Below are positions 4,267 to 38,611 of a DNA stretch of 64,000 bases, piece by piece. The translations under genes were made by a program, and so were the position numbers. The notes under the pieces were generated by a model, which did no database searches, was not told the origin of the DNA, and worked only from the letters and a program-made list of their open reading frames with translations. Numbering within the stretch: the stretch's first letter is position 1; each line of letters begins with the position of its first letter. Origin of the DNA: Novibacillus thermophilus (GTDB lineage: Bacteria > Bacillota > Bacilli > Thermoactinomycetales > Novibacillaceae); the NCBI RefSeq assembly GCF_002005165.1, contig NZ_CP019699.1:1054001-1118000 (forward strand), written 5' to 3'.

Positions 4267-4466
4267 ATTTTCTCGTTTGTGACAAAGCACTGCCGGCTAC
4301 TTTTTTTGAAGTTTTGCTGTACCGATTGTCTCGCAAAATCTTACTTGCCTTTGTGGCTACACGTTTTGAAGTCTGTTTTTTGTTAGCCAATCGGATCACC
4401 TCCTCCCAAAGACTCATTCGACAGGGAGGAAGAAAATCCTACATCAGCCTAACGAAAGGAGAAGAT

Positions 4467-6851: not shown

Positions 6852-6873
6852 CGCGATTGTTCGAGGGTTTTTT
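6836..6873 (+). terminator. Intrinsic terminator overlapping a stop codon
   Basis: A 10-bp perfect stem (AACAATCGCG / CGCGATTGTT, 6836-6845 and 6852-6861) has loop CTGTAA, which contains the stop codon of the preceding gene. CGAGGG and a run of T follow. Confidence 0.75.
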
Positions 6874-6937
6874 AAAAATCCGCTTGAAGATATGTTATCA
6901 CGAAAAAACCTCGAAATCAATTGGAGGAGGGATTGCT

Positions 6938-17881: not shown

Positions 17882-17903
17882 GCCGTTAGGGCTTTTTTAT
17901 TTT
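17881..17903 (+). terminator. Weak terminator between head genes
   Basis: AGCC and GGCT form a short stem, followed by TTTTTATTTTG. Weak stems like this between head genes probably reduce rather than stop transcription. Confidence 0.45.
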
Positions 17904-17968
17904 GTCCGTTTATGCGTAGTGGACGTTAAATAAAACGCAAGGAAATTACCCATACGGGAGGCTTCAAA

Positions 17969-18544: not shown

Positions 18545-18558
18545 GGGGTTGATTAAAT

Positions 18559-19431
18559 ATGGCAAATGCTATTAACTACGCTGAACGTTATCAACAAGAA
18601 TTAGATCAGGTTTTAACGCAAGCAACACTTACTAACGCTTTGGAAACACCGAATGTCAACTGGATGGGAGCGAAAACGTTCCACGTACCGACTGTTGACG
18701 TGACGGGGTATCAAAACCACAGCCGAAACGGCGGTTGGAATCGTGGAGATGTCACGGTCACTCATGAGCCGTATACGCTTCAGTTTGACCGTGACGTTGA
18801 ATTTTTTGTTGATCAAATGGATGTCGACGAAAGTAACCAAGCGGCAAGCGCAGCAAATATTACCCGTGTTTTCCTGACCGAAAAAGCGGGGCCGGAAGTG
18901 GATGCATACCGCTTCGGGAAAATGGCGACACACGCGATTGATGAAGGTTTAGCCACTGGAGAAGCGATTGACGCAACGAATGTGTTTCAACGTTTGAAAG
19001 CCGATATTTTGAAAGTGCGGAAATACGGTCCGTCTAATCTCATTGCGTACCTTTCAAGTGAGGCAATGGACGCATTGGAGCGCTCTGAGTATTTTCAGCG
19101 CAATATCAACGTTCAAGATCAGGGGACGGCGATCGAAACTCGTGTCACGTCTCTTGACGGCGTACAGCTTGTAGAGGTTTGGGACGCCGAACGCTTCAAC
19201 ACGGAACACGATTTCACCAGCGGGTTCACGGCAACTGGGTTAGGAATCAACTGGATTATCGTTTATAAAGGGGCTATTGTGGCGAAAACGAAAGTGAACA
19301 GCGTATACCTGTTTGCTCCGGGACAACACACGGAGGGTGACGGATATCTCTATCAGAACCGCATGTATCACGACTTGTTTGTGATGAAAAACAAAGCGGA
19401 CGGCATTGTGGTTTCGCATGTAGAAGCATAG
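18559..19431 (+). CDS. Major capsid protein
   Basis: A 290-residue protein immediately downstream of the scaffold with strong ribosome site spacing. HK97-like capsid features include the N-terminal helix, VDVTGYQNHSRNGGWNRGDV, FDRDVEFFVDQMDVDES and the P-domain-like RFGKMATHAIDEG. It is the building block of the head shell. Confidence 0.88.
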   Translation: MANAINYAERYQQELDQVLTQATLTNALETPNVNWMGAKTFHVPTVDVTGYQNHSRNGGWNRGDVTVTHEPYTLQFDRDVEFFVDQMDVDESNQAASAANITRVFLTEKAGPEVDAYRFGKMATHAIDEGLATGEAIDATNVFQRLKADILKVRKYGPSNLIAYLSSEAMDALERSEYFQRNINVQDQGTAIETRVTSLDGVQLVEVWDAERFNTEHDFTSGFTATGLGINWIIVYKGAIVAKTKVNSVYLFAPGQHTEGDGYLYQNRMYHDLFVMKNKADGIVVSHVEA

Positions 19432-20049: not shown

Positions 20050-20442
20050 ATGGCATATTTGACATATGACGAATACACTCAATTCGGATTCTCTGAGATC
20101 GAGGAAGACGAATTCAATCGGCTATTGCCCAAGGCGAGTGATGTTTTGAATGCTGTCACTCGTGATTTTTATGTGTTTAATGACATTGAGGATGATGTTG
20201 AGTTCCGTCGGGGAAGGTTCAAAAAGGCTGTTGCCGCCCAGATTGAATATTTCCATGACATAGGGGCAACGTCGTCACATGGATTAAACGAACCGTCTAC
20301 CGTCACAATTGGGAGAACGACTGTATCACGAGGATACAGAGGAACGTCACAGGATGAGACGCAATTTAGTATCGTGTCTCCAGATGTGTTGATGTATTTG
20401 TCAGGGACAGGGCTTCTCTATCGCGGCGTGAGGGTGGTTTAA
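20050..20442 (+). CDS. Head-tail connector (gp15-like adaptor)
   Basis: The 130-residue protein (MAYLTYDEYTQFGFSEIEED, then KAVAAQIEYFHDIGA) matches the helical connector adaptor that docks under the portal in SPP1-type phages. It is the first of four short overlapping joining genes. Confidence 0.8.
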   Translation: MAYLTYDEYTQFGFSEIEEDEFNRLLPKASDVLNAVTRDFYVFNDIEDDVEFRRGRFKKAVAAQIEYFHDIGATSSHGLNEPSTVTIGRTTVSRGYRGTSQDETQFSIVSPDVLMYLSGTGLLYRGVRVV

Positions 20443-20784
20443 ATGCGTATCGGTCCGTTGCCGAAGCGTTGGCTCATTCATTCGATTGAGTATTACGAGT
20501 ATCTCGGGGAGGATGATTGGAGTAACCCGATATACGATGATCCGATTGTGATCAAAAACGTGCGTTTTGACAATTCAACTGTGTTTAGCCGCGATACAAC
20601 ACAAACAAAGGTTTTAGCCGATGCGGTTATTTTTGTAGACGTCACACATAGTGACCCTGTTCTTGATTTTAAGGAACGATCAAAAATTCAGTTCAACGGC
20701 AGGGATATGATACTTCAAAAAGTGATTCCCTGCTTTTATCCGCACAAAAACGAGGTCAGACACTACGAACTCGAGGTGATCTGA
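20443..20784 (+). CDS. Head-closure / minor capsid protein
   Basis: The 113-residue beta-rich protein (PLPKRWLIHSIEYYEYLGED, then FNGRDMILQKVIPCFYP and HYELEVI) resembles putative minor capsid/head closure proteins. It lies between connector and tail completion genes and overlaps the next gene by one base. Confidence 0.72.
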   Translation: MRIGPLPKRWLIHSIEYYEYLGEDDWSNPIYDDPIVIKNVRFDNSTVFSRDTTQTKVLADAVIFVDVTHSDPVLDFKERSKIQFNGRDMILQKVIPCFYPHKNEVRHYELEVI

Positions 20785-21113
20785 TGGCAGTCAGAGTAAA
20801 TGTGAAAAAAGACTTAAGAGGTGTCGGGAAACGGGTTTCGCAGATGACTAAGCTAGGGCAATATGCTCTGGCGAATCAGGTTCATGCTGACTCGAACCGT
20901 TATGCACCATTGTTGACAGGAGACTTACGCAACCAATCGGCAGTATCGCCGGACAACAAGTCTATCGTTTGGAACGTTCCTTACGCTAGACGACAGTACT
21001 ACAACTATGGCGCAAAATTCACCACGCCGGGCACGGGGCCAAAATGGGACGAAAAAGCGAAAGCAATTCACATACGATCGTGGGAACGAGTTGTTAAAAG
21101 GGCGATGAAGTAA
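20784..21113 (+). CDS. Minor capsid protein 2 / tail completion
   Basis: A 109-residue basic protein (NQVHADSNRYAPLLTGDLRN, then PYARRQYYNYGAKFTTPGTG) of the minor capsid 2 family, equivalent to HK97 gp10-like joining proteins. It overlaps both neighbours by one base. Confidence 0.8.
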   Translation: MAVRVNVKKDLRGVGKRVSQMTKLGQYALANQVHADSNRYAPLLTGDLRNQSAVSPDNKSIVWNVPYARRQYYNYGAKFTTPGTGPKWDEKAKAIHIRSWERVVKRAMK

Positions 21114-21511
21114 TGACACTTGATTTTATGTTGAAGCTGAATCAACTCATTAACAGTCTTGACCTTTATGCGCCTTGCAAGATCGGCGTGTTAGGAGAAG
21201 AAGAAAGCCTGTCCATTATGTCAATGCCCGGCGGGGAAGAAACGGTCTATTTCGACGGCGTGCGGGACAAGGATTATCAAGTACAGGTGAATGCGAAAAG
21301 CAGGAATCACAATAACTGTTTCAACGCTTTAACAACGATTTATCAAACACTTGAAAATCTAACAGATTTACCGAGCGATAACGGAAGTTACGATTTTCAG
21401 GGAATTACCACACAATCATTACCGTCACTCGTGATGCAGGATGAGGACGGTTTTTTTATTTACCAGCTTTCGATTAGCGCAAAAATTACGATTTATGAAG
21501 GAGTGAGCTAA
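21113..21511 (+). CDS. Minor capsid protein 3 / tail terminator
   Basis: The 132-residue protein (LINSLDLYAPCKIGVLGEEE, then YFDGVRDKDYQVQVNAKSRN) fits the minor capsid 3/tail terminator group, which caps the tail tube. It is coupled to the previous gene and sits just before the tail tube gene. Confidence 0.75.
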   Translation: MTLDFMLKLNQLINSLDLYAPCKIGVLGEEESLSIMSMPGGEETVYFDGVRDKDYQVQVNAKSRNHNNCFNALTTIYQTLENLTDLPSDNGSYDFQGITTQSLPSLVMQDEDGFFIYQLSISAKITIYEGVS

Positions 21512-21512
21512 T

Positions 21513-21980
21513 GTGGCGAGACAAAAGAACGCTCTGACGGAATATTACGTTGGCGCTATACCTAGCGACGGGTCAACCGAACCGGAATATTTTCGTTTGG
21601 CGAAATGGATTTCAACCGTTACGGATGATTCGGAAGAAGAAACGGAAAGTGTAGGGTATTACGACGGTGATGGGACGCCTGAAACAGATGTGATCAGCGT
21701 AGCGAAAACTTACACATTCGAAGGGTTTTATGATGATGAAGATCCGGCTATGTCGTTTATCAAGAGTCTTGAGTTTGAGACAGGTGAAGGCCGGAAAATT
21801 ATGTTTAAGCAAGTGCGAACAAATGGCGACACGCTTGAAGGGCGTGCAACAGTAACTGACATTGCAGTGACAGGAGGAGAAGCGACAGAATACGCGACGT
21901 TCAACTGCACAATTGCGTGGGACAGAAAGCCGGACATCACACCCGGTGACGGAAATGGTGGCGGTGGAGTAGAGGGGTAG
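21513..21980 (+). CDS. Major tail tube protein
   Basis: A 155-residue protein from GTG 21513 after GGAGTGAGC. The core (TDDSEEETESVGYYDGDGTP, then DPAMSFIKSLEFETGEGRKI and TFNCTIAWDRKP) resembles siphophage tail tube subunits. The C-terminal Gly-rich tail is flexible. Gene order also supports the call. Confidence 0.82.
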   Translation: MARQKNALTEYYVGAIPSDGSTEPEYFRLAKWISTVTDDSEEETESVGYYDGDGTPETDVISVAKTYTFEGFYDDEDPAMSFIKSLEFETGEGRKIMFKQVRTNGDTLEGRATVTDIAVTGGEATEYATFNCTIAWDRKPDITPGDGNGGGGVEG

Positions 21981-23603: not shown

Positions 23604-23628
23604 TTGCGCCGAAAGGCAGGTGAGAAAA

Positions 23629-25863
23629 ATGGCAGATGGCAGGGTCGTAATAGATGTCATACTCGACGACGGAAGAGTGGCAAAAGGTGTCGCAAATATC
23701 GATAAATCATTAGGTGGTCTAGGACAAACCGCTAGAAGAGGAGCGGCAGTCGTTGGAAAATTAGCAGCGGCATTGGGTTTGGTATATGTCGCAAAAAAAG
23801 GGATTGATTTAGTCACTAGATCACTTGACGGAGCTATAGATCGATATGACACATTGAACAATTTCCCTCGTGTAATGCAACAGATGGGGTTTGATGCAGA
23901 AGCGTCTGAAAAAGCAATACAAAGGCTGTCGGATGGTGTTCAAGGACTACCAACTCGATTAGACGAAGTAGCTAAAACCACCCAAAGAATTGCAATTATG
24001 ACAGGCGATTTAGATGGAGCTGTAGAAACCACCCTGGCCTTGAATAACGCCTTTTTGGCTTCGGGTGCGAGCCAAGCTGATGCGGCGCGCGGGCTAGAAC
24101 AATACGTGCAAATGTTGGCGAAAGGCGAAGTGGACCTGCAGTCATGGCGGACTCTGCAAGAAACGATGGGCGTTGCGCTGAACGATGTGGCGAAAGCGTT
24201 CGGTTTCGCTGGTAAATCAGCGCAGAATGATCTTTACGAAGCGTTAAAAAGCGGAGAAATAACGTTCGATGAATTTAACAATAAATTAATCGAGTTAAGC
24301 AACCAAACAGGTGGGTTTGCAGACCAAGCGAGAACTGCTAGTGGTGGGATCAGGACAGCATGGACTAACTTAAGTACGTGGATTGTCACTGGCGTCGCTG
24401 ATGTGATCGGAGCAATCGATGAAGCGTTAGGTGGTACAGGATCGATCGAAAGTGCTATTAACAATTTAAAACCTGTCATCCAAGCTGTTTTTGGGTGGAT
24501 GGCTGAAATGGTTTTAGTCGTAGCAGATAGAATTCGAATGGTCAAGGACGCGATTGATCCGTGGCTACCGTCGATTAATGAAGTGAGAGACGGTTTTATG
24601 AACGTCTTTTCGGCGTTACAGTCATTCGTTATGCCGATTATTCAAGAAGTTGTTAGCTTCATTATGAATGTTTGGGGGCAGTTAGTTGCGTGGTGGCAAG
24701 AGAACGGAAACCAAATTATGCAAGCGGCGCAAAATGCTTTTCAATTTATACTTACAATTGTTCAAGCGGTGATGCCAGCAGTTCAGTTTATTATTCAAAT
24801 TGTGTGGGATGCTATTAAAAACATTATAAGCGGTGCATTATCCGTTATTCAGGGATTGATACAAGTCTTTACCGGAATTTTCACCGGGGACTTCTCGCAA
24901 ATGTGGGAAGGCATCAAAAAGATATTTTCTGGAGCGATAGATTTAATTATCGGTTGGTTGTCGCTCTCTTTCTTGGGTGGAATCAGGAAAATACTTCTAA
25001 ATTTATTGAAAAATGGCGTTAAGATTGTTCAAAACATGTGGAAAAACATCGTAAATTTCTTCAAGAACTTTGGCACGAACGCTCAAAACCTTGTTTCCAA
25101 TATGGTCATGAGAGTTCTGAGCTTTTTTAGAAACTTATTCAATCAAGCGAGAAACATATTTACCAGTTTGAGGGCATCTGGAGTTTCTATTTGGAACTCC
25201 TTACGCGAAACTGTTTTAAACGTAGTCAGAGGTATATGGCAAGGCGTTACACAACGTTTTCGGAACATGTTATCCAGCGTTAGAAACACAATGAATAATG
25301 TCCGCAGTACTATTTCTAATATTTGGAATAGAGTGATGTCGTTTTTCCGCGGGATTAACTTGTATAAAGTCGGGAGAGACATTATTCAAGGGTTGATTCG
25401 AGGAATTGGATCAATGGCTGCTGCTGTATGGGAAAAAGCAAAAAGCATCGCTAGCGGGATAGGAGATACAATTAAAAAGGCTCTTGGTGTTTCATCTCCG
25501 TCCAAACTCGCTATTTGGATCATGGAAATGGTTGGGAAAGGGTTAGAAATTGGCGGCGATAGAGCTTTACCCGGCATCAGAAAAACCGCTCAAAAGATGG
25601 GACAAACCGCAACCCCCGTCCCAGAAATTCTTAAATTGCGTGGAATTAAACCGCCGTTGGGCAACTTGATGCCTACAGCGTCGTTTGCAACGGCTAGCGG
25701 TTCTGCAAGTGCCGGAAGTCCTATATTTTCTCGTGCAATAGATAATAAACAACCCGCTGTTATTCGACTAGTGTTGGGAAGACGCGAATTCGAAACATAC
25801 GTGGATGATATCACGGAAGTGCAAGACAGAAAAAGCTATAGATTAGAGCGTTTCAGGAGATGA
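23629..25863 (+). CDS. Tail tape measure protein
   Basis: The 744-residue protein has the tape measure N-terminal domain (YDTLNNFPRVMQQMGFDAEA, LDEVAKTTQRIAIMTGDLDG, VDLQSWRTLQETMGVALNDV). A long region of hydrophobic helices with repeated Trp-Asn segments (IWNSLRETVLNVVRGIWQGV) follows, then KALGVSSPSKLAIWIMEMVG. Its size sets a fairly short tail. ATG at 23629 follows AGGTGAG; an in-frame GTG lies at 23620. Confidence 0.92.
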   Translation: MADGRVVIDVILDDGRVAKGVANIDKSLGGLGQTARRGAAVVGKLAAALGLVYVAKKGIDLVTRSLDGAIDRYDTLNNFPRVMQQMGFDAEASEKAIQRLSDGVQGLPTRLDEVAKTTQRIAIMTGDLDGAVETTLALNNAFLASGASQADAARGLEQYVQMLAKGEVDLQSWRTLQETMGVALNDVAKAFGFAGKSAQNDLYEALKSGEITFDEFNNKLIELSNQTGGFADQARTASGGIRTAWTNLSTWIVTGVADVIGAIDEALGGTGSIESAINNLKPVIQAVFGWMAEMVLVVADRIRMVKDAIDPWLPSINEVRDGFMNVFSALQSFVMPIIQEVVSFIMNVWGQLVAWWQENGNQIMQAAQNAFQFILTIVQAVMPAVQFIIQIVWDAIKNIISGALSVIQGLIQVFTGIFTGDFSQMWEGIKKIFSGAIDLIIGWLSLSFLGGIRKILLNLLKNGVKIVQNMWKNIVNFFKNFGTNAQNLVSNMVMRVLSFFRNLFNQARNIFTSLRASGVSIWNSLRETVLNVVRGIWQGVTQRFRNMLSSVRNTMNNVRSTISNIWNRVMSFFRGINLYKVGRDIIQGLIRGIGSMAAAVWEKAKSIASGIGDTIKKALGVSSPSKLAIWIMEMVGKGLEIGGDRALPGIRKTAQKMGQTATPVPEILKLRGIKPPLGNLMPTASFATASGSASAGSPIFSRAIDNKQPAVIRLVLGRREFETYVDDITEVQDRKSYRLERFRR

Positions 25864-25867
25864 TTCT

Positions 25868-27295
25868 ATGATATTTAACGGAATTGACCTTTCCCCTTAT
25901 TTGCGTATCAAAGAAATACATGGCAGAGGTATTTCACCGAGCGAACTTACGTTGATTGACGTTCCCGCTATGGATGGGGCTTATTATTCGCAGAAGAGAC
26001 GTCCGCCACGAGTAATAGAAATTGAAGCTGATATCAGAGCGAGTAATCGAGAAGAGTTACGCACGAAATTAGATCAACTGAATGCGATTCTAGATGTCAA
26101 TCAACCTGTTCCGATTATCTTTCCAGATGAGCCGGATATGATTTATTATGGCATACCTGAGTCGACAGGAGAAGGCAATGAGTATACGTTTTTGCATCAA
26201 GTGCAGCTTACGATTATCTGCCCTGATCCGTACAAATACAGCGACGAGGTTATTGTCGAATTCCCGTCTGATGTCGTCACGGTCACGAATGAAGGGACAG
26301 CAGAAGCCGATCCGGTGTTTGAACTTGAAGTATTGGAACCCGTGACATTCGCGATGATACAGAATCAAGACGAAGACTATATGATGATTGGACGACCCGT
26401 TAGCGCGGAAGAAATTGCTTTTGAGCGCGAAGAAAGAATTTTGCACGATGCGATGAACAGTACGGTCGGCTGGGTGGAAGGGGTGGATATAGATGGTGAT
26501 ATATCTGGGACTATGGTGTCTGCCGACGGAAAGTTTGTGGTCAGCGATTTTGGGGAACCGTCCGAAGCTAAATGGTACGGTCCGGCATTAAGACGCAGTT
26601 TACCTGAACTTTTACAAGACTTTCGCGTTGACATACTTGTAGAAAATTTTAATACAACCGAAGGTGTTGGACGTGTAGATGTTTATTTGCTTGATTCGAG
26701 TAATCGTACAGTAGCGAATATTAAGATGTCGGACGCGTGGCAAACAATAAAACGAAATAGAGCGAGAGGGTATTTGCAGAATCCTGAAAGAACTGAACAG
26801 TTGATTTATACACATGAAACAACATCACAAGCAACGGGAGAGCTTTGGAACGATTTTGACGGTATTTTTCGATTTCAGCGGATAGGAAATCTATGGATGT
26901 TATATGTTGGGAAAGTGCGCCCGGATGGAACACATCATGCCCGGAGAATTGTGAGGTACTCTGATACGCTCGAAGAATTTTCACAACCTATTGCGCAAGT
27001 GCAGATTCATATGGGGATATTTGATGATCATCCCCCAACTGATCTAGCGATCAAAGACTTGAAAGTATGGAAAATCAATGATCCCGCTGATGATCAAGTT
27101 CCATATATCGCGCATGAGGGAGATAGTATTGTGTTTGATCATACGAACGAAGATATTTTATTGAATGGAGAACCGCGAAAAGATTTAAAAGATTTTGGGG
27201 CGAAGTTTTTTAAATTAAAACGCGGGAACAACCAATTAATTGTTCATCCGGATTCATTTAATACGAAACTTCGATACCGTAAAAGATTTATATAG
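25868..27295 (+). CDS. Distal tail protein (Dit-like)
   Basis: The 475-residue protein begins with the siphovirus tail domain (FNGIDLSPYLRIKEIHGRGI, DVPAMDGAYYSQKRRPPRVI, LTIICPDPYKY). An inserted carbohydrate-binding-like beta module follows (residues about 195-400), and the Dit C-terminus returns at RGNNQLIVHPDS. A longer Dit with an inserted module is typical of phages that contact cell-wall sugar at the tail tip. Confidence 0.85.
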   Translation: MIFNGIDLSPYLRIKEIHGRGISPSELTLIDVPAMDGAYYSQKRRPPRVIEIEADIRASNREELRTKLDQLNAILDVNQPVPIIFPDEPDMIYYGIPESTGEGNEYTFLHQVQLTIICPDPYKYSDEVIVEFPSDVVTVTNEGTAEADPVFELEVLEPVTFAMIQNQDEDYMMIGRPVSAEEIAFEREERILHDAMNSTVGWVEGVDIDGDISGTMVSADGKFVVSDFGEPSEAKWYGPALRRSLPELLQDFRVDILVENFNTTEGVGRVDVYLLDSSNRTVANIKMSDAWQTIKRNRARGYLQNPERTEQLIYTHETTSQATGELWNDFDGIFRFQRIGNLWMLYVGKVRPDGTHHARRIVRYSDTLEEFSQPIAQVQIHMGIFDDHPPTDLAIKDLKVWKINDPADDQVPYIAHEGDSIVFDHTNEDILLNGEPRKDLKDFGAKFFKLKRGNNQLIVHPDSFNTKLRYRKRFI

Positions 27296-27314
27296 AGAAG
27301 GCGAGGTTGTAAAA

Positions 27315-30300
27315 ATGTCACCATCGGAAACTGTTATACACATAACCGATCATCAAACTGATGTCATCCTCGACACGATCAGCGATTTTTGGGATGATAC
27401 GCATCTAAAACAACTGAACGGCGTGGAGACGTTCGATTTTACCACGTTTTCCGATGAGTCGTACTCCGAACATCTCGCTGACCGAAATAGGATAGTTATC
27501 CCGGGTGAAGACGGTGAGTTTCTCGAATTTATTATTGAAGAAGTTATACAACACTCTGATCGAACAAAAGCGGTTTACGCAAGTGCAAGTTATTTAGAAC
27601 TGAAAAAACAGAAAGTGATCGAACCGCAGACATTGAGCGGACAAACACCGCAATCCGCCGTTGATTTTGCCCTATCTAATACAGAGTGGCGGCCCGGGAT
27701 TATTACTTTTACAAATATTCGAACGATACACATTGAAAATCACACAAACCCGTATAACTTGTTACGTAAAATTGCGAGTGAGTTTGACCTTGAATTGCGT
27801 TTCCGCGTAGAAATAGACCACTACCGGATTATCGGGCGTTATGTGGATTTAATTGAACAGGTTGGTGAATGGCGCGGGCGCGAAATAGTGTTTGGTAAAG
27901 ATTTACTAGGGATAGAACGAAAAGAAAAAACCGATCAAGTTGTAACAGCGCTTATTGGACTTGGACCAGAGCGTGAGGACGGTACACGACTCGAGGTGTT
28001 CGTCGAAGACTTAGACGCGTTACAGCGCTGGGGTCGTGGGGGGCGGCATCTCATTGAAGTGTATGAACCGGAATCGACCGATCAAGATATGACAGAATCG
28101 CGGTTGCGGGAATTAACTGAAAACGAACTAGAAAAAAGAGTAAATGCAATTGTGGAATATGAAGTAAATATTTCAGATGTCGAGAATGTCCCGGAACTGG
28201 AAAACGAACAAATTCGATTCGGCGATACGATCAGAATCAAAGACGAGAAGTTCAGTCCGCCGTTATACCTTGAGGCGAGAGTTCACACGCAAGAGCGAAG
28301 CCTTAGGGACAGATCAAGAAAAAGGGTTGTTTTAGGCGATTTTACTGAATACACGGAAGAAGAAGTGCGAGCGATATGGAAACAATTGCGACAACAAATA
28401 CAACAGAAAATAAGTCGGGCGGAATTATCCGAATATGCGGAACGAAAAATACACAGAAGCGCTTCGCCCCCAGAAAATACGGAGCATTTATGGTTAGACA
28501 TTACAACAATACCGAATGTGTTAAAGCGTTATGACGAAGAGGAAAACGATTGGGTCAAAATCACTCCGACGCGCGCAGATGAAGTGGGCGCGGAAACGCC
28601 GGACGGAGCGCAAGAGAAAGCCGATCAGGCGGAAGAAAATGCGAAAATTTATTCGGAAAACTTTACGATTAACTATGCGCAAAAACAAATAACATCTAGC
28701 CCTACGCCTCCCGAAAATCCGGAAATAGGAGACTTGTGGTTTGATAATAGTACCGAGCCGCCCACTTTTAGACGGTGGAATGGGTTGGAATGGGAGAAAC
28801 TGTCGGCGTCGTCGTTTGAAGAATTGGAAGGCATGATTGACAAAGAACAACTTCCTGACCGTGTGATTGACGCAACAAAACTGGCGATTGACGCGGTACA
28901 AGCGGAGAATTTAGCCGAGAATTCAGTGTACGCGGAAGCGATCCAAGCCGAAGCTGTCGGAGCGCAAGCGATTGCGGCGAACGCTATTTTAGCCAAGCAT
29001 ATTGCGGCTGGCGAAGTGACGGCAAATCATTTAGCGGCTGATGCCGTCACAGCGAATGCTATAGCGGCGGGGGCTATTTTATCAGAGCATATCGCATCGA
29101 AGAGTATAACGACAGATAAGCTCATGGTGGGCAACCTAGATAATATGATTGACAACCCTAATTTCATAGATTCTATTGAACCTCATCACGTCTTCATGGG
29201 AAGATGGGGGCTACTTACAGGGGAACAGTCGTTCGTGCAAGGGAAACCCTCGCTCGAATGCGATGCAGAAGAGCTTGGGGGCGAACAACGAATATATCTG
29301 AACGGCGACCACACTATAGAGGTGCAACCGGGAGAGCGCTACTACATGACTGTCTGGGTTAGGCCGTCTGGGCCTAGCGGAGTGACTTGGAACAGGCTCA
29401 ATTTAGCCTTTCGTTGCGAAGATGCAAACGGAAACTATTTGGCTTTTGCGGGTAGCCAGACATGGAAACCGGGAGTAGACATTCCCGTACGACAGTGGAC
29501 ACAATTAAGTTTGATAGCGGATATTCCAGCCGGAGCTGTCACGATGGCCCCGACAATTCGTGTCTTAGACGACGACGCAAATAATATCTCTCACTATCTT
29601 TTCGACGCGGTTAACATGCGGCGCATGGTTGATGGCAATATTATTACCGGGACCTTGGACGCAGGACAGGTGACAATCGGCGGGACGGGGCCTACGCGAG
29701 CGCATCTGGGTGTAGACAATATTGAGTTTTATCGAAATAACAACTATACCGGACAAGTCACAACCGCTCAATACGATAATAACCGCGATCAAATTTTAGT
29801 TCACTCCCCGAATCAGTCTGCATTAGCCGCATCTGATGAAGTCGGCTGGGGATCGTTGTATAAAGGCGCCTTTGTCGAAGCGCACAACACTTCTAACAAT
29901 GCGAACGTCAATCTGATAGCGTATAATGGTAGCCGTGTTTCTGAATTCTCAATATCGGCGACAGATGGCGCCGCACTCTTTGGCGGTTTAACAGTGTACG
30001 GAGGACAGTCTGTTTTCTACGACCCGATTATTGTCGAACCCCTTAGCGGGACTACAGCTCTCCGTCTTAACATTGAAAGAGCTTGGGAATTCAGGTCATA
30101 CGGTACAGGCTCTGCAACAGAATTAGGTTTAAAAGCTTTAACGGCGCAAAAAAATTTTTCAATAAGGAACTCTGATGATCAGCGGATAGTCGACTTTAGG
30201 GCTTATACAAGCGGCGGTGGTATGTATGTTTACCGCGATTTTACAGTAGCGGGCAGCAAGTCAGCAGTTGTCGAAACCGAAAACTACGGGAAACGTCTCA

Positions 30301-30611
30301 TGTATGCACTTGAGACGCCAGACAGCCGTTTCATGGACGTAATAGAGACGACACTCGAGCCCGGTGAGCATTGGATTGAGCTTAATCCTATGTTCGCGGA
30401 GACGATCAACGGTTATAGCGTGTTTCCTATAACGCAAGACGGAGGTAGGGTACAAGTGTTGGAGCGTGAGCCAAAACGCTTCAAACTTCGCGTGATCGGA
30501 GAAAAACAAGTGGACGTTGCATGTTGGGTGTACGGGAAACGAATCGGTCACGAAGAAAAATACATGGAAAAAGTAAAAGAGGAGGATGAGTTAGAACACA
30601 ATGAACATTGA
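27315..30611 (+). CDS. Tail-associated lysin/baseplate protein with fibre extension (Tal)
   Basis: A 1098-residue protein. Residues 1-380 match the prophage endopeptidase tail (Tal/gp18) domain that forms the tail tip. The next part has two copies of a segment like PENTEHLWLDITTIPNVLKRY and PENPEIGDLWFDNSTEPPTF. A shaft rich in short AxxIxAxxV-type repeats (about 530-620) follows, then a beta-rich receptor-binding end. ATG at 27315 is preferred; the frame is open back into the Dit gene. Confidence 0.85.
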   Translation: MSPSETVIHITDHQTDVILDTISDFWDDTHLKQLNGVETFDFTTFSDESYSEHLADRNRIVIPGEDGEFLEFIIEEVIQHSDRTKAVYASASYLELKKQKVIEPQTLSGQTPQSAVDFALSNTEWRPGIITFTNIRTIHIENHTNPYNLLRKIASEFDLELRFRVEIDHYRIIGRYVDLIEQVGEWRGREIVFGKDLLGIERKEKTDQVVTALIGLGPEREDGTRLEVFVEDLDALQRWGRGGRHLIEVYEPESTDQDMTESRLRELTENELEKRVNAIVEYEVNISDVENVPELENEQIRFGDTIRIKDEKFSPPLYLEARVHTQERSLRDRSRKRVVLGDFTEYTEEEVRAIWKQLRQQIQQKISRAELSEYAERKIHRSASPPENTEHLWLDITTIPNVLKRYDEEENDWVKITPTRADEVGAETPDGAQEKADQAEENAKIYSENFTINYAQKQITSSPTPPENPEIGDLWFDNSTEPPTFRRWNGLEWEKLSASSFEELEGMIDKEQLPDRVIDATKLAIDAVQAENLAENSVYAEAIQAEAVGAQAIAANAILAKHIAAGEVTANHLAADAVTANAIAAGAILSEHIASKSITTDKLMVGNLDNMIDNPNFIDSIEPHHVFMGRWGLLTGEQSFVQGKPSLECDAEELGGEQRIYLNGDHTIEVQPGERYYMTVWVRPSGPSGVTWNRLNLAFRCEDANGNYLAFAGSQTWKPGVDIPVRQWTQLSLIADIPAGAVTMAPTIRVLDDDANNISHYLFDAVNMRRMVDGNIITGTLDAGQVTIGGTGPTRAHLGVDNIEFYRNNNYTGQVTTAQYDNNRDQILVHSPNQSALAASDEVGWGSLYKGAFVEAHNTSNNANVNLIAYNGSRVSEFSISATDGAALFGGLTVYGGQSVFYDPIIVEPLSGTTALRLNIERAWEFRSYGTGSATELGLKALTAQKNFSIRNSDDQRIVDFRAYTSGGGMYVYRDFTVAGSKSAVVETENYGKRLMYALETPDSRFMDVIETTLEPGEHWIELNPMFAETINGYSVFPITQDGGRVQVLEREPKRFKLRVIGEKQVDVACWVYGKRIGHEEKYMEKVKEEDELEHNEH

Positions 30612-31048: not shown

Positions 31049-31076
31049 GTGGTTAATTTTTTAGAGGGGGATGATT

Positions 31077-32183
31077 ATGGTTGTTAAAGTAGCAATTGGA
31101 GCTGGACACGGTGGTTTTGGGGCAACACCGGGAAAGCGCACGCCAGACGGTGAATATGAGTGGGATTTTAACAACAAAGTCGTTTTAGCTGCTATCAAGT
31201 ACTTGAAACAATACCAAGGTGTAGAGATTATGCGCCTTGATGATCCATCTGGAAAAACGGATGTACCGCTATCAACCCGTACAAATAAAGCTAATACGTG
31301 GGGGGCAGATATTTATGTATCTTGTCACCACAACGCAAACACAGGGGTATGGGGTGATTGGACCGGAACAGAGACTTTTTATTACGTTGGGTCCGCCAAA
31401 GGAAAGAAACTGGCACAACTCATCCATGCAAAAGTACTGAAGGCATACGGTTTAAGGGATCGAGGAATCAAGAGAGGGAACCACTTGTACGTCATCAAAA
31501 ACACAAAAATGCCAGCGGTCCTAATTGAAGGCGGGTTCATGGACTCCACGATTGACATTAAAAAGCTTCGTGACGATAAGGTGCTAGACGCCGCAGGAAA
31601 AGCGATAGCAGAAGGAGTTGCGGAGTATTTTGGGTTAAAAAAGAAAATGGGTGGTCAGTCTAAACCATCGAAACCCAGCAAATCCTCTACTAAATCTAGT
31701 AAAGGCAGTAGCACAAAATGGACAGGTCAGATTCTTCGGAAAGGCGATAGCGGCCCGATTGTCCGATCTATGCAGAACATGTTGATCTCAAAAGGTTTTA
31801 GTCTCCCGAAGTTTGGAGCAGATGGCCATTTTGGCGATGAAACAGAAAGAGCTGTCCGGGCAGCACAAAGAGCAACTGGCATTCCCGTGGACGGCATAGC
31901 CGGGCCGCAAACTTACCGTGCATTACGAAACTACTCCGGATCATCATTCCGCTTCCGTCATTGGAATGGTTCCGTCATCAGAAACGGAGAACGTGGAAAG
32001 CATGTCAAGGAGCTTCAGGACCGACTGTTGGCACTTGGATACAAGTTGCCGAAATACGGTGCGGATGGCGTGATGGGTAGCGAGACAGCCAATGCAGTCC
32101 GAAAGTTCCAGCGTGATGCGGGAATTAAAGTTGATGGTATTCCAGGACCAGAGACGAAAAAGTCATTAGAGGGGAGAGGGTAA
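31077..32183 (+). CDS. N-acetylmuramoyl-L-alanine amidase (endolysin) with two PG-binding domains
   Basis: The 368-residue enzyme starts with an Amidase_3 domain: VAIGAGHGGFGATPG with the zinc-ligand His, YVSCHHNANT, and VLIEGGFMD with the catalytic Glu (residues 1-185). An S/K-rich linker (about 195-215) is followed by two peptidoglycan-binding repeats (RSMQNMLISKGFSLPKFGAD and KELQDRLLALGYKLPKYGAD). ATG at 31077 has GAGGGGG at good distance. It cuts the cell wall at lysis. Confidence 0.92.
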   Translation: MVVKVAIGAGHGGFGATPGKRTPDGEYEWDFNNKVVLAAIKYLKQYQGVEIMRLDDPSGKTDVPLSTRTNKANTWGADIYVSCHHNANTGVWGDWTGTETFYYVGSAKGKKLAQLIHAKVLKAYGLRDRGIKRGNHLYVIKNTKMPAVLIEGGFMDSTIDIKKLRDDKVLDAAGKAIAEGVAEYFGLKKKMGGQSKPSKPSKSSTKSSKGSSTKWTGQILRKGDSGPIVRSMQNMLISKGFSLPKFGADGHFGDETERAVRAAQRATGIPVDGIAGPQTYRALRNYSGSSFRFRHWNGSVIRNGERGKHVKELQDRLLALGYKLPKYGADGVMGSETANAVRKFQRDAGIKVDGIPGPETKKSLEGRG

Positions 32184-32186
32184 GCC

Positions 32187-32435
32187 ATGGAACAAGTACT
32201 CATTTTCGCCACAATCTTGGCACCGATCATCACGGCACTTGTCGAATTGGTGAAGCGATCGGTACCGGTTCCGAAAAATGTCATTCCGGCGATCAGTCTC
32301 GTGATCGGACTGTTTGTCGGAGCAGTGGCTTATCCGTTCACTGACTTGGAATTGGTACTGCGATTATGGTCGGGAGGATTGGCAGGATTGGCAGCGACGG
32401 GCTTGTTTGACCCGAGTTCGACAGTTGCTAGGTAA
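32187..32435 (+). pseudogene. Phage holin, 3' end displaced by IS insertion
   Basis: The product has two membrane segments (residues about 4-20 and 32-49) and the layout of LLH-type holins. From base 32411 the frame runs into an IS end, giving an artificial tail PSSTVAR. Joining 32410 to 34341 restores GLFELAVNKHEGVTK and a stop at 34375-34377. The insertion thus replaced the last 13 native residues. The membrane part is intact, so residual activity is possible. It follows the amidase gene by 3 bp. Confidence 0.85.
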
Positions 32436-34334
32436 ACGAATGCCCCTCAAAGCTTTGTGTATCAAGGTTTTGAGGGGTAAAAAGGGCATAATTATTGTGT
32501 TACTAGCTTTTCGGTTTGATTTCTAAAATTTCAGGAGGCAGATTCACGCCTACTTTATTGAAAATCTCTTTCTGTTTGGCGGTTGGTGTCGTCGTACGAT
32601 ATAGATCTCCATCCTTCGTGGTGAAATGACCCACTTGAAGCCTTTGGACCTCACGACGCACGGAATCCCAACTCGAGCCGGTTTCATTTTCAATCAACCT
32701 GACAAGCAAAAGTGCCAGCCAATTAATGATGATATGAGCTCGAATTCGTCTCTCTAGCCGATGGTACATCGGCCGTATGTTTAATGTGGACTTTAACGTT
32801 CGAAAAGCGCTTTCGACTTGAAGTAACTGCTTATACCCTAACGCAATATCCTCAAGGGATAACGTATCGTCTGATGTCCGGATTAAGTATTTGCCATCGT
32901 ATTTCTCTTCATCCCGTATGGCTTGCTTATTCAGTTTCAAGGTACCATCTTTCAATTGGCGGATATATTTCCCGTACACTTTATGCACCCGTAAAGCACA
33001 TGCCCGTTTGTGGTGGGCTTCATTCGGTAATTGTTTCAAATTTTCAAGCTGCTCCTCAACGGCACAGATGATTTCCTTTCTTTGACGGCGGTCACGTTCG
33101 GCTTCTTCCGGATTATAGGCGATCACATAGCGTTTTCTGGCTTCGCCATCTCCAACAATCGATTCTTTTACTAAGAGGTTTTCACGAATGGCATGGAACC
33201 GTCCACGTTTATTAAGTGCAGCTTCCACATCCTTTTTGCCTGCCCGCATCCGTTCGCCAATAATATAATGTCCGGCACCACGTTGTAGGATGCGTAGATT
33301 TTCTTCGGAGGAAAAACCACGATCCATCACATGGATTATGCGCCCAAGGCGCCAACCCATCAAATCTTTCTTCACTTCCTCAATCACATTCATATCCATC
33401 GTGTTTCCTGGCCAAGACCACACTTTAATGGGAATGCCTTCACGTGTAACCGCTAGTCCAATCACCGTTTGTACGAGGTCCGGACGTTTATCTTTCGAGT
33501 ATCCTTGAAGCCGAAAATCGTCATCTTCCGGGGTTTCGTTGGGAGCGACTTCAAAGTAACTGGATGTCGTATCGAAATAGAGAAGATCAACTTCCAGATT
33601 GAACAGGTTGGAAACATTGTCAAATACACGATCTTCCAACAAGCTTTGGGCATCCAATAACTCGTCCATGGCACGGTAAAGCTGATGGCAATGAACACTT
33701 GGAAGCCCAGGGAGATAGACATCTTCGGATATCCATTCTTCCATTCCTAATTTACTGGAAGGGGCAAGCGCACGGTTTGCGACCATTGCAAAAATGGCAC
33801 GTTCTAAATTGATTTCGTGCTTGCGCTCTTTAAAAATCTCTTCGAGAATCGTATCCATCCCTAATTTTTTCCAAAGTTGATCAAATAGCCAAATGCCACC
33901 CAGTTGCTTGACAGACCGGAATAAAAATTCAGCTGTATCTCTAATTTTTTGTTTCGACTTCAGTGCCTCTTCGGGTGAGAGGAATCTATTGATACTTTGG
34001 GCCAGTCGTTCGAGTACGTCCATATCGAGATCATCTTCACGACCGAATGAATAGATCACCTTCGCTTTCGCATATTTGGCCTTCGGATCCCACACGTTAT
34101 GAGCGAGCTGAATGTACGAAACTCTTGATCCATCTTTGTTTTTGCGAGTCACCCTTCTAATATACATGCCTATATTATAATTCATAAACATTATAATGTA
34201 AACACAAATTTTATTAAACGTGTGCCTATGTAAAATTCAAAAAATTTTAAGCACAAATCCACGAAAAGATTGATATCATAGGAAATACATTTTATTAAAA
34301 AGTGAATTTGTGCCTATTTACTGTCGAACTCGGG
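32411..34334 (-). mobile_element. IS1634-type insertion sequence (IS4 superfamily), complete
   Basis: The 1924-bp element has terminal inverted repeats CCCGAGTTCGACAG (32411) and CTGTCGAACTCGGG (ending 34334); similarity continues inward with TAGG. It is flanked by a 6-bp direct repeat GTTTGA at 32405-32410 and 34335-34340, the size expected for this group. One transposase gene fills it. Confidence 0.93.
32503..34191 (-). CDS. IS1634 family transposase
   Basis: A 562-residue DDE transposase. The first catalytic Asp lies in DLLYFDTTSSYFEV, the second in RIIHVMDRGFSSEENL, and the Glu in QVESAFRTLKSTLNIRPMYH with the Y-x2-R-x3-E-x6-K-like pattern of IS4 elements (YLIRTSDD upstream). No frameshift is seen, so it may be active. 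It is transcribed against the phage late operon. Confidence 0.93.
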   Translation of the reverse strand: MFMNYNIGMYIRRVTRKNKDGSRVSYIQLAHNVWDPKAKYAKAKVIYSFGREDDLDMDVLERLAQSINRFLSPEEALKSKQKIRDTAEFLFRSVKQLGGIWLFDQLWKKLGMDTILEEIFKERKHEINLERAIFAMVANRALAPSSKLGMEEWISEDVYLPGLPSVHCHQLYRAMDELLDAQSLLEDRVFDNVSNLFNLEVDLLYFDTTSSYFEVAPNETPEDDDFRLQGYSKDKRPDLVQTVIGLAVTREGIPIKVWSWPGNTMDMNVIEEVKKDLMGWRLGRIIHVMDRGFSSEENLRILQRGAGHYIIGERMRAGKKDVEAALNKRGRFHAIRENLLVKESIVGDGEARKRYVIAYNPEEAERDRRQRKEIICAVEEQLENLKQLPNEAHHKRACALRVHKVYGKYIRQLKDGTLKLNKQAIRDEEKYDGKYLIRTSDDTLSLEDIALGYKQLLQVESAFRTLKSTLNIRPMYHRLERRIRAHIIINWLALLLVRLIENETGSSWDSVRREVQRLQVGHFTTKDGDLYRTTTPTAKQKEIFNKVGVNLPPEILEIKPKS

Positions 34335-35619: not shown

Positions 35620-35937
35620 TCATCTGATAAACATTTTCTCAACCTCCTTCACTACATCCACTGCAGACACTTCTATATATCCTCGTCGGTTTTTCACCCG
35701 CACATCATATACTGTCGCCTGATCTGTTCTGGACACACGTATAAGCTCATTGCTCAATCTGTCCAGTTTGGCGTCTACACTCTTTAGGACATTTTCTATT
35801 AGCTGTTCATAAATCAACCGAAATTTCAGTCCATTCTCACGTATCCTATCCCGATCATACCGAAGTGCTTTTTGTGCAGATCTGAAAATGAGGTATTCCC
35901 GCGCCAGCTTCCGATCTCGATCGGTTAGCGTGCCCAT
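35620..35937 (-). CDS. SOS-box-controlled phage protein, unknown
   Basis: A 105-residue protein (MGTLTDRDRKLAREYLIFRS, then TVYDVRVKNRRGYIEVSAVD) that is basic and helical in its first two thirds. ATG at 35937 is chosen because AAGAGGTGAT lies just upstream; the frame is open to 35979. A LexA-type box lies immediately before the ribosome site. It is divergent from the LexA-like gene, so the two are probably controlled together. Confidence 0.65.
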   Translation of the reverse strand: MGTLTDRDRKLAREYLIFRSAQKALRYDRDRIRENGLKFRLIYEQLIENVLKSVDAKLDRLSNELIRVSRTDQATVYDVRVKNRRGYIEVSAVDVVKEVEKMFIR

Positions 35938-35953
35938 ACGATCACCTCTTGTA

Positions 35954-35967
35954 GGAACATTTGTTCC
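35954..35967. promoter_or_regulatory. SOS (LexA/DinR) box for the leftward gene
   Basis: GGAACATTTGTTCC is a perfect GAAC-N4-GTTC palindrome, next to the CGAAC-N4-GTTCG consensus of Bacillus LexA boxes. It ends 17 bp before the ATG at 35937. Confidence 0.7.
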
Positions 35968-36033
35968 CATTATATTCAATTTGTGGTTATTTTCAAAGAA
36001 AAAACCACACCTCTATCCGTGAGGTTTTTTGAA

Positions 36034-36084: not shown

Positions 36085-36351
36085 TTGCTAACAAGAAGGC
36101 AGCGAGAGGTTCTTGATGCAATCATTACGTTTACACAAGAAAACAATTACCCACCTACTGTCCGAGAAATTGGCAGCATGATCGGAAGCAAATCGCCGAG
36201 CACGGTACAGGACTTATTAAAGAAGTTAAAAAGAAAAGGCTTTGTCACGTGGGAACCAAAGATACCGAGAACAATTCGAATTATTAAAAGGATTGAAAGG
36301 CGGGTTAAGCATGGAACAAGAGGAAAGGAACCAGATTATAGAGTTTGTTAA
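36085..36351 (+). CDS. LexA-like DNA-binding domain protein without peptidase domain
   Basis: An 88-residue protein from TTG 36085 after AGGAGGGG. It is a match to the LexA N-terminal winged helix (LTRRQREVLDAIITFTQENN, YPPTVREIGSMIGSKSPSTV). The C-terminal S24 peptidase half with its Ser-Lys dyad is absent. It could occupy LexA boxes without being cleaved by RecA-stimulated autolysis. It lies under its own SOS box, suggesting autoregulation. Confidence 0.85.
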   Translation: MLTRRQREVLDAIITFTQENNYPPTVREIGSMIGSKSPSTVQDLLKKLKRKGFVTWEPKIPRTIRIIKRIERRVKHGTRGKEPDYRVC

Positions 36352-36490: not shown

Positions 36491-36595
36491 TTTAGTAAGA
36501 CTGTGGGGGCGAGTGGGAACGATAAGAAGATCTAATAAATAATAAATTTTTCGGATCTTCATTAAGGATTCCCTTTTGTAAAGCTGACAAGCAGA

Positions 36596-36631
36596 GGGCG
36601 CATATCCTGAGAAATAAGGGGGTATGCGCCC
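36596..36631 (+). promoter_or_regulatory. Hairpin masking the ribosome site upstream of the recombinase operon
   Basis: GGGCGCATA (36596-36604) pairs with TATGCGCCC (36623-36631), and the adjacent CC and GG extend the stem. The AAGGGGG that would serve the ATG at 36632 lies in the right part of the structure. Translation of the small protein, and possibly of the overlapping recombinase gene, may depend on opening it. Confidence 0.6.
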
Positions 36632-36829
36632 ATGCATGTTAAGATCATCGAGGGTGAATTTGCTGACAAGTGTCGCCACGCTTGCTATGCTTATCTTAAA
36701 GGGAAGTACAGGAGGGAGAAACTCGGTGATCGGGATTTACGCAAGAGTAAGCACAGAGGAACAAGCAAGGACAGGTTTCAGCTTACAAGACCAAATCAAG
36801 GAGTGCAAAAAGAAAGCGAGAACGAATGA
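36632..36829 (+). CDS. Small protein overlapping the recombinase start
   Basis: A 65-residue protein (MHVKIIEGEFADKCRHACYA, then a very basic tail) whose gene overlaps the recombinase gene by 104 bp in another frame. Its N-terminal 35 residues resemble the 5151 product, so the prophage carries two relatives. Position before a serine recombinase is where a directionality or accessory factor might lie, but no such activity is shown. The frame could also end functionally near the recombinase start. Confidence 0.5.
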   Translation: MHVKIIEGEFADKCRHACYAYLKGKYRREKLGDRDLRKSKHRGTSKDRFQLTRPNQGVQKESENE

Positions 36830-38225
36830 AGTTATTGAATACATAGATGATGGATTTTCCGGAGAGTTTTTAGACAGGCCGGCATTGACAAAGTTGCGGA
36901 ATGATGTAAAAGAAGGAATCATTTCTAAAGTAATTTGCCTCGATCCTGACCGACTATCCCGAAAATTAATGAACCAATTAATAATAACGGATGAGTTTGA
37001 TCGTCTTGATGTTGAACTTATATTTGTGAACGGTGAATATGCCAAGACTGCTGAAGGGCAGCTTTTTTACAGTATGCGTGGTGCTATTGCTGAATTTGAG
37101 AAGGCCAAAATTAATGAACGGATGTCTCGTGGACGAAGGGAGAAGGCACGTCAAGGTCGTGTCGTCCGGGACTACCAGATATACGGTTACGACTACGATA
37201 AAGAAACCGAACAGTTTATCATCAATGAAAGCGAGGCGGAAATTGTCCGTCTCATATTTGATCTTTTTACGAAGCCTAATGACCTTGTCCGCGGAATCAA
37301 CGGGATAGCAAAATATTTAACGGAGAAAGGTGTTCCCACCAAGCGTGGTGCAAATGTGTGGCACCGCCAAGTAGTACGACAAATGCTCATGAACCGAGCC
37401 TATATTGGAAAATTCTATCAGAATAGGTGGAACACGGAAGGAATGCTTGGTAACAAACACAAGCCAAAAGATGAACGCATACCTATGAAAGAGCGACCTC
37501 GGGAAGAGTGGATACCTGTTCCTTGTCCTGCCATTATAGATCGTCAAACCTTTGACCATGCACAAAATCTGCTCTCCGAATCTCGTCGCCGATGGACAAA
37601 ACAAAGCAAAAGAAGATACCTTCTTAGCGGACTTCTTCGATGCGCCAAATGTGGTAATACAATGACCGGAAGAAAACATCGTAACTGGGGGGCAGATGTT
37701 TTTATATATACCGATGAGAAAAATTACTCTGGAGCAAAGCATCCCGGTTGTGGTATGCGGGTTAGGTGTGAAAAACTTGATAAAGATGTGTGGGATAAAA
37801 TATCCCATTGGTTGAACAACCCAGATGAGATTGCAACGGTAGAAGATGAGACGGATGAGGTTGATTTTGAACAGGCTGAAATCATTCGGTTAGAAACTGA
37901 AATTAAAAAGGCAAAAGAGGGCCGTAAGCGGCTTCTCAACCTGTTTGCGGAAGGTTTGGAGATCGGTCAGGAAGAAATCCGAGAATCATTGAAAGGGTTG
38001 AAGCGAAAAGAGGAGCATTTAACAGAAGAATTAGAAGAGTTAAAGAAAAGATATAGCGAACTGTCGAATAAGCAATATAGCGCCAACCTTATAAAAGAGG
38101 CCGCTGCGTACTATTTAAATCATGGTAAGGAAGAACTGTCTTTTGACGATAAGCAGGCATTGATTAGATATGTAGTGAAGGAGATTAGGGTATATAAGGA
38201 CGGTATTGAGATATACACTTTCTAA
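36726..38225 (+). CDS. spoIVCA: Large serine recombinase, SpoIVCA-type sigK element excisionase/integrase
   Basis: A 499-residue large serine recombinase. The resolvase domain starts [12 protein letters not shown] with the catalytic Ser in RVST, followed by [34 protein letters not shown] and [15 protein letters not shown]. The recombinase domain has [20 protein letters not shown]. The zinc ribbon has [13 protein letters not shown] and later Cys, and a coiled coil (about 385-460) follows. These blocks closely resemble SpoIVCA of Bacillus. GTG at 36726 follows AGGAGGGAG. The stop lies 23 bp before the sigK sequence resumes. Confidence 0.92.
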
Positions 38226-38262
38226 ACGCCTCTAATGACATTAGAATCGAGATTTTGATGCA
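38226..38262. other. Right attachment junction (attR-type) within sigK
   Basis: Sigma-K coding similarity begins at GAGATTTTGATGCAC (38249), giving E-I-L-M-H. The preceding bases belong to the element. In B. subtilis the exchange lies within the Asn-Glu codons of the same conserved CIENEILMH stretch. The exact two-base crossover cannot be fixed without the left junction. An AATGA, the B. subtilis core sequence, is present at 38234 but is not positioned to join the frame simply. Confidence 0.75.
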
Positions 38263-38611
38263 CCTTCGATCGTTGAAAAAAACGCGAAAAGACGTCTCTC
38301 TGCACGATCCCATCGGAACGGACAAAGAGGGGAACGAAATCACATTGATCGATGTGCTCGGAACGGACATTGACGACGTGATTCAGCGAGTGCAACTGAA
38401 AATTGAGAAGAGCAAAATCTATCAACACATTCACATCTTAGACAAACGCGAGCAAGAAGTGATACGCGGCCGTTTCGGACTGGATAACGGCGAGGAACGG
38501 ACACAGCGTGAAATCGCCCGCAAACTGGGCATTTCCCGTTCTTACGTTTCCCGCATTGAAAAGCGGGCGTTGATGAAATTGTTTCACGAGTTTTACCGGT
38601 CGTCAGAATAA
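38249..38611 (+). CDS. sigK: RNA polymerase sigma-K, C-terminal half (interrupted gene)
   Basis: The frame encodes [20 protein letters not shown] and [20 protein letters not shown], then region 4.2 with [20 protein letters not shown]. This is the part of sigma-K downstream of region 2, equivalent to SpoIIIC of B. subtilis. Regions 2.1-2.4 are missing. A TTG at 38255 could start translation, but no good ribosome site is present, so the piece is probably expressed only after excision joins it to the N-terminal half. A strong terminator follows. Confidence 0.93.

Follow-up and report, generated by a model that had tools for sequence, protein, structure and literature searches.

A siphophage genome inserted in sigK of Novibacillus thermophilus, its skin-type recombination unit and the division of sigK into pieces among related bacteria

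The DNA analyzed here (the window) is a stretch of 64,000 nucleotides of the Novibacillus thermophilus genome (C1:1054001-1118000), which consists of one closed contig of 3,629,225 bases. The left part of the window is occupied by a prophage. At its right end a large serine recombinase gene, together with a short skr-like open reading frame (ORF) that overlaps its start, adjoins the 3′ part of sigK (Table 1). The recombinase stop is separated by a gap of 23 bases (38226-38248) from the GAG codon at which the sigK frame resumes (E-I-L-M-H), in agreement with the initial annotation, which had put a SpoIVCA-like recombinase 23 bp ahead of the sigma-K frame at this motif.

Table 1. Features of the prophage, its recombination unit and the adjoining sigK part (positions in the window)
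Feature	Position	Strand	Basis or remark
Prophage part inside the window	1-38248	+	whole element 38,516 bp, begins 268 bases left of the window (C1:1053733)
Phage repressor-like regulator	2815-3348	-	PHROGs
Rha-type antirepressor	4314-5150	+	PHROGs, scanned from 4464
RecE-like exonuclease	6812-7879	+	PHROGs, scanned from 6980
RecT-like annealing protein	7879-8757	+	PHROGs
DnaD-like and DnaC-like helicase loaders, two overlapping ORFs	8813-10436	+	PHROGs
Terminase large subunit	13633-14934	+	PHROGs and phage comparison
Portal protein	14946-16433	+	PHROGs
Minor head, scaffold and major head proteins	16697-19431	+	PHROGs
Two head-tail adaptors, minor head proteins, major tail protein	20050-21980	+	PHROGs
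Tape measure, Dit and Tal-like tail proteins	23620-30611	+	PHROGs, domain search
Endolysin and holin	31071-32435	+	PHROGs, ORF list; final holin codons inside the insertion sequence
IS1634-family insertion sequence	32410-34334	-	GTTTG on both sides; three identical copies in the genome
Promoter-like block: TAA (36579-36581), GACAAGC (36586-36592), CATATCCT (36601-36608)	36579-36608	+	spacing and column conservation in relatives
Predicted 13-bp stem-loop over the -10-like arm of the block and the G-rich skr ribosome-binding site	36596-36631	+	folding
skr-like ORF, 65 aa, presumed recombination directionality factor	36632-36829	+	101-nt overlap with the recombinase before its stop
SpoIVCA-like large serine recombinase, 499 aa	36726-38225 (GTG start)	+	domains, alignment
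attR: phage arm GACATTAGAATC and shared core GA	38237-38250	+	junction comparison
sigK 3′ part	38249-38611	+	model matches, identity to G001 SigK

The N-terminal part of sigK is located about 250 bases to the left of the window (C1:1053415-1053753), as revealed by a search of the whole genome with the TIGR02846 model. In the same search no SigK above the model cut-off was detected anywhere in the closed genome. An intact sigK elsewhere was thereby ruled out; the best long match (C1:1345863, 262 bits) is a sigE-like gene below the cut-off. The C-terminal part scores 189 bits with NF004471 and 179 bits with TIGR02846, both values being below the cut-offs, as expected for half of a protein. Over 127 residues it shares 87% identity with intact SigK from G001, the one other genome of the family that we compared and one in which SigK exceeds the model cut-off. 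The N-terminal part stops at the same codons where the C-terminal part resumes, 38,516 bp apart, and therefore the split cannot be attributed to chance. The initial annotation had expected the N-terminal half and a left junction to emerge once the sequence was extended leftward, and both were found where predicted. The contrary outcome that it had named at the level of the genome sequence, an intact sigK elsewhere together with a left end devoid of the N-terminal half, did not appear.

The left junction reads TGC ATC GAG AAC GAG ATT CTA ATG TCT ATA GGG TAG and the right one GAC ATT AGA ATC GAG ATT TTG ATG CAC CTT, the longest string common to both in-frame junctions being CGAGATT. The insertion point is thus the E-N-E-I-L-M stretch of sigK, the conserved skin-type site that had been proposed from the right end of the element. 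If the shared GA is taken as the crossover, the element measures 38,516 bp and the joined sigK becomes an in-frame ORF of 233 codons, whose product and intact G001 SigK share 84% identity over 222 residues. The deduced attP shows 12 perfectly paired bases on either side of GA, and this symmetry assigns the I-L-M-like codons at the left end to the phage arm. We also considered a crossover at TCTAATG, which is present at both ends, and dropped it, since it would bring a stop codon into the joined frame, whereas the GA core keeps the frame open. The 5-nt repeat of B. subtilis (AATGA) is not repeated at these junctions, which share CGAGATT instead. A search of viral contigs for the exact attP pattern returned 0 matches and was uninformative.

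The assignment of the recombinase to the SpoIVCA type is based on its domains (Resolvase, Recombinase and zinc-ribbon) and on its position adjoining a part of sigK. Residue S9 is invariant in the alignment of 13 recombinase sequences. The recombinase of L033 (Caenibacillus caldisaponilyticus), the closest one over the first 316 residues (80%), was kept out of this alignment because its gene is frameshifted (at about 5942). The skr-like ORF had been overlooked in the initial annotation. We presume it to be skr from its place, size, frame and overlap, as it agrees in place, length, frame and the 101-nt overlap with the B. subtilis gene, which is described as a 64-aa gene that shares 101 nt with spoIVCA and is needed to join sigK (Suzuki et al., PMC6957869). 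Within the 93 nt before the overlap, differences at codon positions 1:2:3 amount to 223:169:385 (pairs among 12 loci, >60% identical), and the excess at third positions indicates that the ORF varies as a protein gene.

Relatives of the recombinase were collected from named genomes (25 loci), from 398 genomes of the class (46 of them with a match at E 1e-120 or better) and from viral contigs (39 loci). The 98 loci with at least 40% identity were then reduced to 74 non-redundant ones at 95%. A sigK piece adjoins the recombinase in one of three clear layouts in 45 of the 74 loci: the C-terminal part on the same strand (35 loci), the N-terminal part on the opposite strand (nine loci) or the N-terminal part upstream (a single locus). 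For a further nine loci the script left the layout of the sigK piece unclassed, 13 had downstream DNA and no sigK piece seen in it, and in seven less than 300 nt of downstream DNA was present. The occurrence of both C-terminal and N-terminal layouts indicates that one recombinase family occupies sigK in both orientations. An skr-like ORF overlaps the recombinase start in 70 of the 74 loci, the overlap being 101 nt in 24 of these 70.

The remainder of the element was characterized with PHROGs, using 40 ORFs of our choice from the ORF lists. A family was found for 38 of them, in some cases weakly, and none for ORFs 12365-12775 and 35620-35979. Taken together, the matches, which include RusA, provide genes for head, tail, packaging, lysis, lysogeny and replication, as in a temperate siphophage. 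The terminase is the sole such gene in the genome. The earlier description of the element as a full siphophage gene set and not a remnant therefore holds with one correction: an IS1634-family element begins inside the holin ORF (32187-32435), so that the last codons of the holin come from the insertion sequence. It is the defect noticed among those genes that were inspected for decay, and it counts against inducibility. The region had evidently been called viral before, since an IMG/VR contig of 35,411 bases matches the window without any difference in the two stretches that we compared (4,500 and 6,870 bases). Another metagenome contig (L176, IMG/VR 3300027711_000037) contains head genes 96.6% and 91.0% identical to those of the prophage, over 6.4 kb, pointing to close relatives of the prophage in circulation. 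A short ORF just before the skr-recombinase pair (36085-36351) matches only the DNA-binding part of LexA-type repressors; it could link the recombination unit to DNA damage.

These data invite the question of whether the element has anything to do with sporulation. An active temperate phage might use sigK as a plain attachment site and be released by DNA damage, and the full lytic and lysogeny gene set, the near-identical head genes in L176 and the description of MMB025 as an infectious sigK phage with a recombinase of the same family (PMC13141910) would all suit such a phage. We nevertheless consider this unlikely, given the insertion sequence in the holin gene and the block before skr, which resembles a mother-cell promoter and is common to relatives. 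Sporulation excision and phage release may also coexist, by analogy with what is described for SP-beta carrying the skin unit (PMC6957869). Conversely, the insertion sequence in the lysis region could mean that the prophage is not under full selection, as expected if the insertion had inactivated sigK, so that the strain fails to complete sporulation and the element no longer excises. That both sigK halves are open and join in frame into a protein 84% identical to intact SigK, that the recombinase and skr-like ORFs are open and that SpoIIID is present make inactivation very improbable.

The promoter-like block was delineated by comparing 58 non-redundant upstream regions of 83 loci. In 39 of the 58, MCAA and CATA are spaced so that the first base of the former precedes the latter by 14 nt; the next commonest distance (13) occurs in four. 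The alignment of 48 regions on this block further shows K-M-A at 22 nt ahead of CATA, a box resembling GACAAGC and, four bases after CATA, a common T; the pattern used to pick these regions fixed positions -13, -12, +2 and +3 and narrowed others, so that full conservation there is by selection. One of the rows, L039, has no skr and matches by chance. With a stricter pattern, the block is present in 57 of the 74 loci. By the usual consensus, the block resembles a sigma-E promoter with a SpoIIID site. SpoIIID exceeds its cut-off in the genome and a sigE-like gene is present as well. A scan with the plain sigma-E consensus at the window's own locus did not pick out the block and performed no better than 181 of 200 shuffles. 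According to published accounts, spoIVCA is under sigma-E and requires SpoIIID (PMC5025042), and its sigma-E promoter in B. subtilis lies more than 200 bp before the spoIVCA start (PMC6957869), compared with about 125 bp between the block and the recombinase start here. Overall, these comparisons support, though they do not prove, a conserved sigma-E/SpoIIID-like block whose sequence could in addition pair with the skr ribosome-binding site.

The predicted pairing between the block and the ribosome-binding site was analyzed by folding. The stem-loop of the window has an energy of -24.7 kcal/mol (z -6.4), and 0 of 200 shuffles were as good. An RNA beginning at 36615, in the loop and near the expected start, is predicted to be without the stem, to fold no better than 54 of 200 shuffles and to have an unpaired ribosome-binding site. 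Among relatives, pairing of the true arms averaged -11.06 kcal/mol versus -8.88 (sd 0.32) for permuted arms, with 0 of 5000 permutations as good, and in 32 of the 44 loci the true arms paired better than swapped arms did on average (the pattern recognized no block or no start in the other 14 of the 58 loci), an advantage to which within-genome base composition may add. The unpaired fraction of the ribosome-binding site over 47 loci was 0.27 in read-through RNA, 0.51 in RNA from the expected start and 0.40 with a shuffled 5′ part; as these loci are related, the corresponding test values are overstated. At the window's own locus the drop in access is small (0.34 versus 0.47), 15 of 60 shuffles being as low. 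For a set of 36 of the 47 loci, both the proportion of paired positions (65.1% versus 61.1%) and the covariation score (0.214 versus 0.148) were matched by 0 of 500 shuffles; from this set L134, L145, L150, L151, L152, L154, L158, L159, L160, L162 and L165 were omitted for another register or weak pairing, a choice that favours the structure. In this set two-sided changes showed no excess over shuffles (7 versus 6.0; 156/500), and RNAalifold predicted no pair.

A hairpin lock on the skr ribosome-binding site is plausible on this evidence. We give about even odds to the simpler possibility that the hairpin is incidental: its two arms, the G-rich ribosome-binding site and the -10-like box, would pair through their composition, and control would be exerted by the promoter only. 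The fixed spacing would then be a promoter feature, genome-shared base composition could favour the true arm pairs, and the RNAalifold result, the number of two-sided changes and the absence of 11 of the 47 loci from the covariation set would raise no difficulty. Harder to reconcile with a by-product are the arm energies, which beat all 5000 permutations and the mean of swaps in most loci, the poorer access in read-through RNA than in RNA from the expected start or with the shuffled 5′ part, and the covariation score.

The locus thus contains a split gene with matching junctions, a recombinase, an skr-like ORF and a phage gene set, from which we infer that the element is excised during sporulation. 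Our main reading, to which we assign a probability of roughly 85%, is that a siphophage of about 38.5 kb used a skin-type unit to integrate in sigK at the E-N-E-I-L-M codons and that its excision in the mother cell rejoins the gene. The unit would consist of the symmetrical attP, the skr-like directionality gene and the SpoIVCA-like recombinase. In the mother cell, sigma-E with SpoIIID would transcribe skr and the recombinase gene, Skr would direct the recombinase to excision and the joined sigK would be formed, the prophage being retained in the forespore. With less weight, we suggest that in read-through RNA the skr ribosome-binding site would be hidden in the hairpin, with the -10-like box as its 5′ arm, and that the mother-cell transcript, beginning inside the loop, would escape this lock. 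We prefer excision in the mother cell because both sigK halves are present with no other SigK above the cut-off, and because of the in-frame product close to intact SigK, the attP symmetry and the recombinase domains. The frequent association of these recombinases with sigK pieces (45/74) and with skr-like ORFs (70/74), the agreement of the ORF found here with B. subtilis skr, the fixed spacing of the block (39/58), the presence of SpoIIID and a sigE-like gene, and the reported excision of an active phage by the skin unit in B. subtilis (PMC6957869) point the same way. Against it we counted the absent AATGA repeat, the shorter distance of the block, the plain sigma-E scan and, among the hairpin results, those of RNAalifold, two-sided changes and own-locus access.

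To place the split gene in a broader context, we searched for SigK in 42 genomes of the host's order. SigK above the cut-off was found in 20 of them, and thus the uninterrupted sigK for which the initial annotation had looked to relatives does occur, G001 having an intact copy. One genome (67% complete) had no match, and 21 had matches of which none was above the cut-off. The sigK pieces were mapped in every one of these 21. Consecutive pieces lie on one contig in 14 of them (G000, G005, G008, G009, G015, G019, G020, G021, G025, G026, G029, G032, G033 and G034); in the other seven (G002, G010, G012, G014, G036, G038 and G040) the pieces are on different contigs or partly seen, and draft breaks are possible there. 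In G001 SigK numbering, the gene is interrupted near residues 55, 106 and 133, and where a recombinase was found, there are three large serine recombinase families, one per break site. Three or more pieces were directly seen in seven of the 21 genomes: G009 (L077), G020 (L078, L079), G021 (L227, L098), G026 (L236, L230, L099), G029 (L080), G033 (L224, L083, L082) and G034 (L231, L234, L101). Four more (G015, G019, G032 and G036) have an inner piece without the N-terminal part. In G026, matching Lihuaxuella thermophila, pieces 1-57, 56-108 and 100-135 are on one contig and 131-219 on another; the frames close soon after each junction, and the C-terminal piece closes at the stop of the gene. Three pieces are also present in G009, whose genome is a single contig, and G081 (matching Anoxybacillus sediminis) is an example with three pieces from outside the order. 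The Novibacillus genome itself has the middle element only. In-frame stop codons in the C-terminal part of G029 and in the N-terminal part of G008 indicate that not every split sigK is intact.

Several individual genomes deserve mention. In G010, one piece (L103, 1-480) passes the residue-133 break to the contig end while a separate C-terminal part is on another contig; this piece is possibly an excised form captured in the assembly. The C-terminal part of G034 (L101, 1661-1927) is on the strand opposite to the other three pieces, which reflects either an inversion or a draft misjoin; in the former case recombination there would invert instead of excising. G014 (L087) has two N-terminal copies of sigK (7098-7502 and 18679-19002, covering residues 1-135 and 1-108) with a broken SpoIVCA-like gene between them.

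If excision in the mother cell operates as we propose, a complete-looking phage genome is tied to developmental excision, and sporulation and phage release would share one cut. sigK emerges as a repeated landing site, with up to three inserts in one gene in relatives, and the comparative set yields a testable rule on how one recombination unit may function in an active phage as well as in a fixed developmental switch. The most general form of this idea is that the skin-type unit is a portable, cell-type-gated switch with a sigma-E/SpoIIID promoter whose -10 arm locks the skr ribosome-binding site in read-through RNA, letting a phage of otherwise ordinary type exit sigK by way of the mother-cell transcript, and that sigK of the order exists in up to four pieces which three recombinase families, acting at three fixed sites, reassemble; we put it forward tentatively and with more doubt than conviction. 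Among the titles and opening parts of abstracts that we searched, none dealt with a three- or four-piece sigK or with a hairpin ahead of skr.

With regard to known systems, the Listeria A118-type siphophages, of which A118 itself sits in comK, are similar in the terminase large subunit (~64% identical). They differ in the recombination unit, for which no match to them was among the matches listed (best 20 of 616). phiS63 infects a host of another class. The title under which PMC13141910 and PMC5553647 cite this Clostridium perfringens phage describes it as inducible and integrated in sigK, and a phage living in sigK is also described for Clostridium tetani (PMC5553647). Bacillus cereus AH820 is reported to have a sigK insertion of 38,129 bp, its excision confirmed by PCR, and Bcbva one of 22 kb that is excised during sporulation; in the account given, the recombinase of both adjoins the 5′ part of sigK, and the Bcbva insertion, at position 195, is without phage genes (PMC10745906). 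Alicyclobacillus phage MMB025, described as resident in sigK (PMC13141910), has an integrase that is 49% identical over its full length to the Novibacillus recombinase, the best of the 20 listed among 616 phage records with a match. Just after its integrase gene, a GA is flanked by an inverted repeat that holds at 15 of the first 20 positions; the core published for this phage, TCTC (the complement of GAGA), falls at this GA position (PMC13141910). By the same description it differs in its size of 105 kb, contractile tail and isolation as an infectious phage (PMC13141910). With phages resident in sigK already in print (phiS63, C. tetani, AH820 and MMB025, as far as these sources describe them), among them inducible or infectious ones, the novelty of a full phage in sigK is smaller than it appeared in the initial annotation. 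The conserved block with its predicted pairing to the skr ribosome-binding site and the division of sigK into three or four pieces go further than these precedents.

The closest parallel in organization is the skin element of B. subtilis, with sigK split at E-N-E-I-L-M, a large serine recombinase adjoining a sigK part and the 101-nt skr overlap. Skin is described as a defective 48-kb prophage (PMC13141910), whereas the element here has a full siphophage set and is in this respect fuller than the textbook case. Its recombinase adjoins the 3′ part of sigK on the same strand, while that of skin is reported to adjoin the 5′ part and to point the other way (PMC10745906). Skin has the AATGA repeat and the present element does not; this repeat is described as not conserved in all sigK insertions (PMC10745906). 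When the skin unit was placed on SP-beta, excision was reported both after mitomycin and in sporulation (Suzuki et al., PMC6957869), and the element of the window looks like a natural counterpart of that construct.
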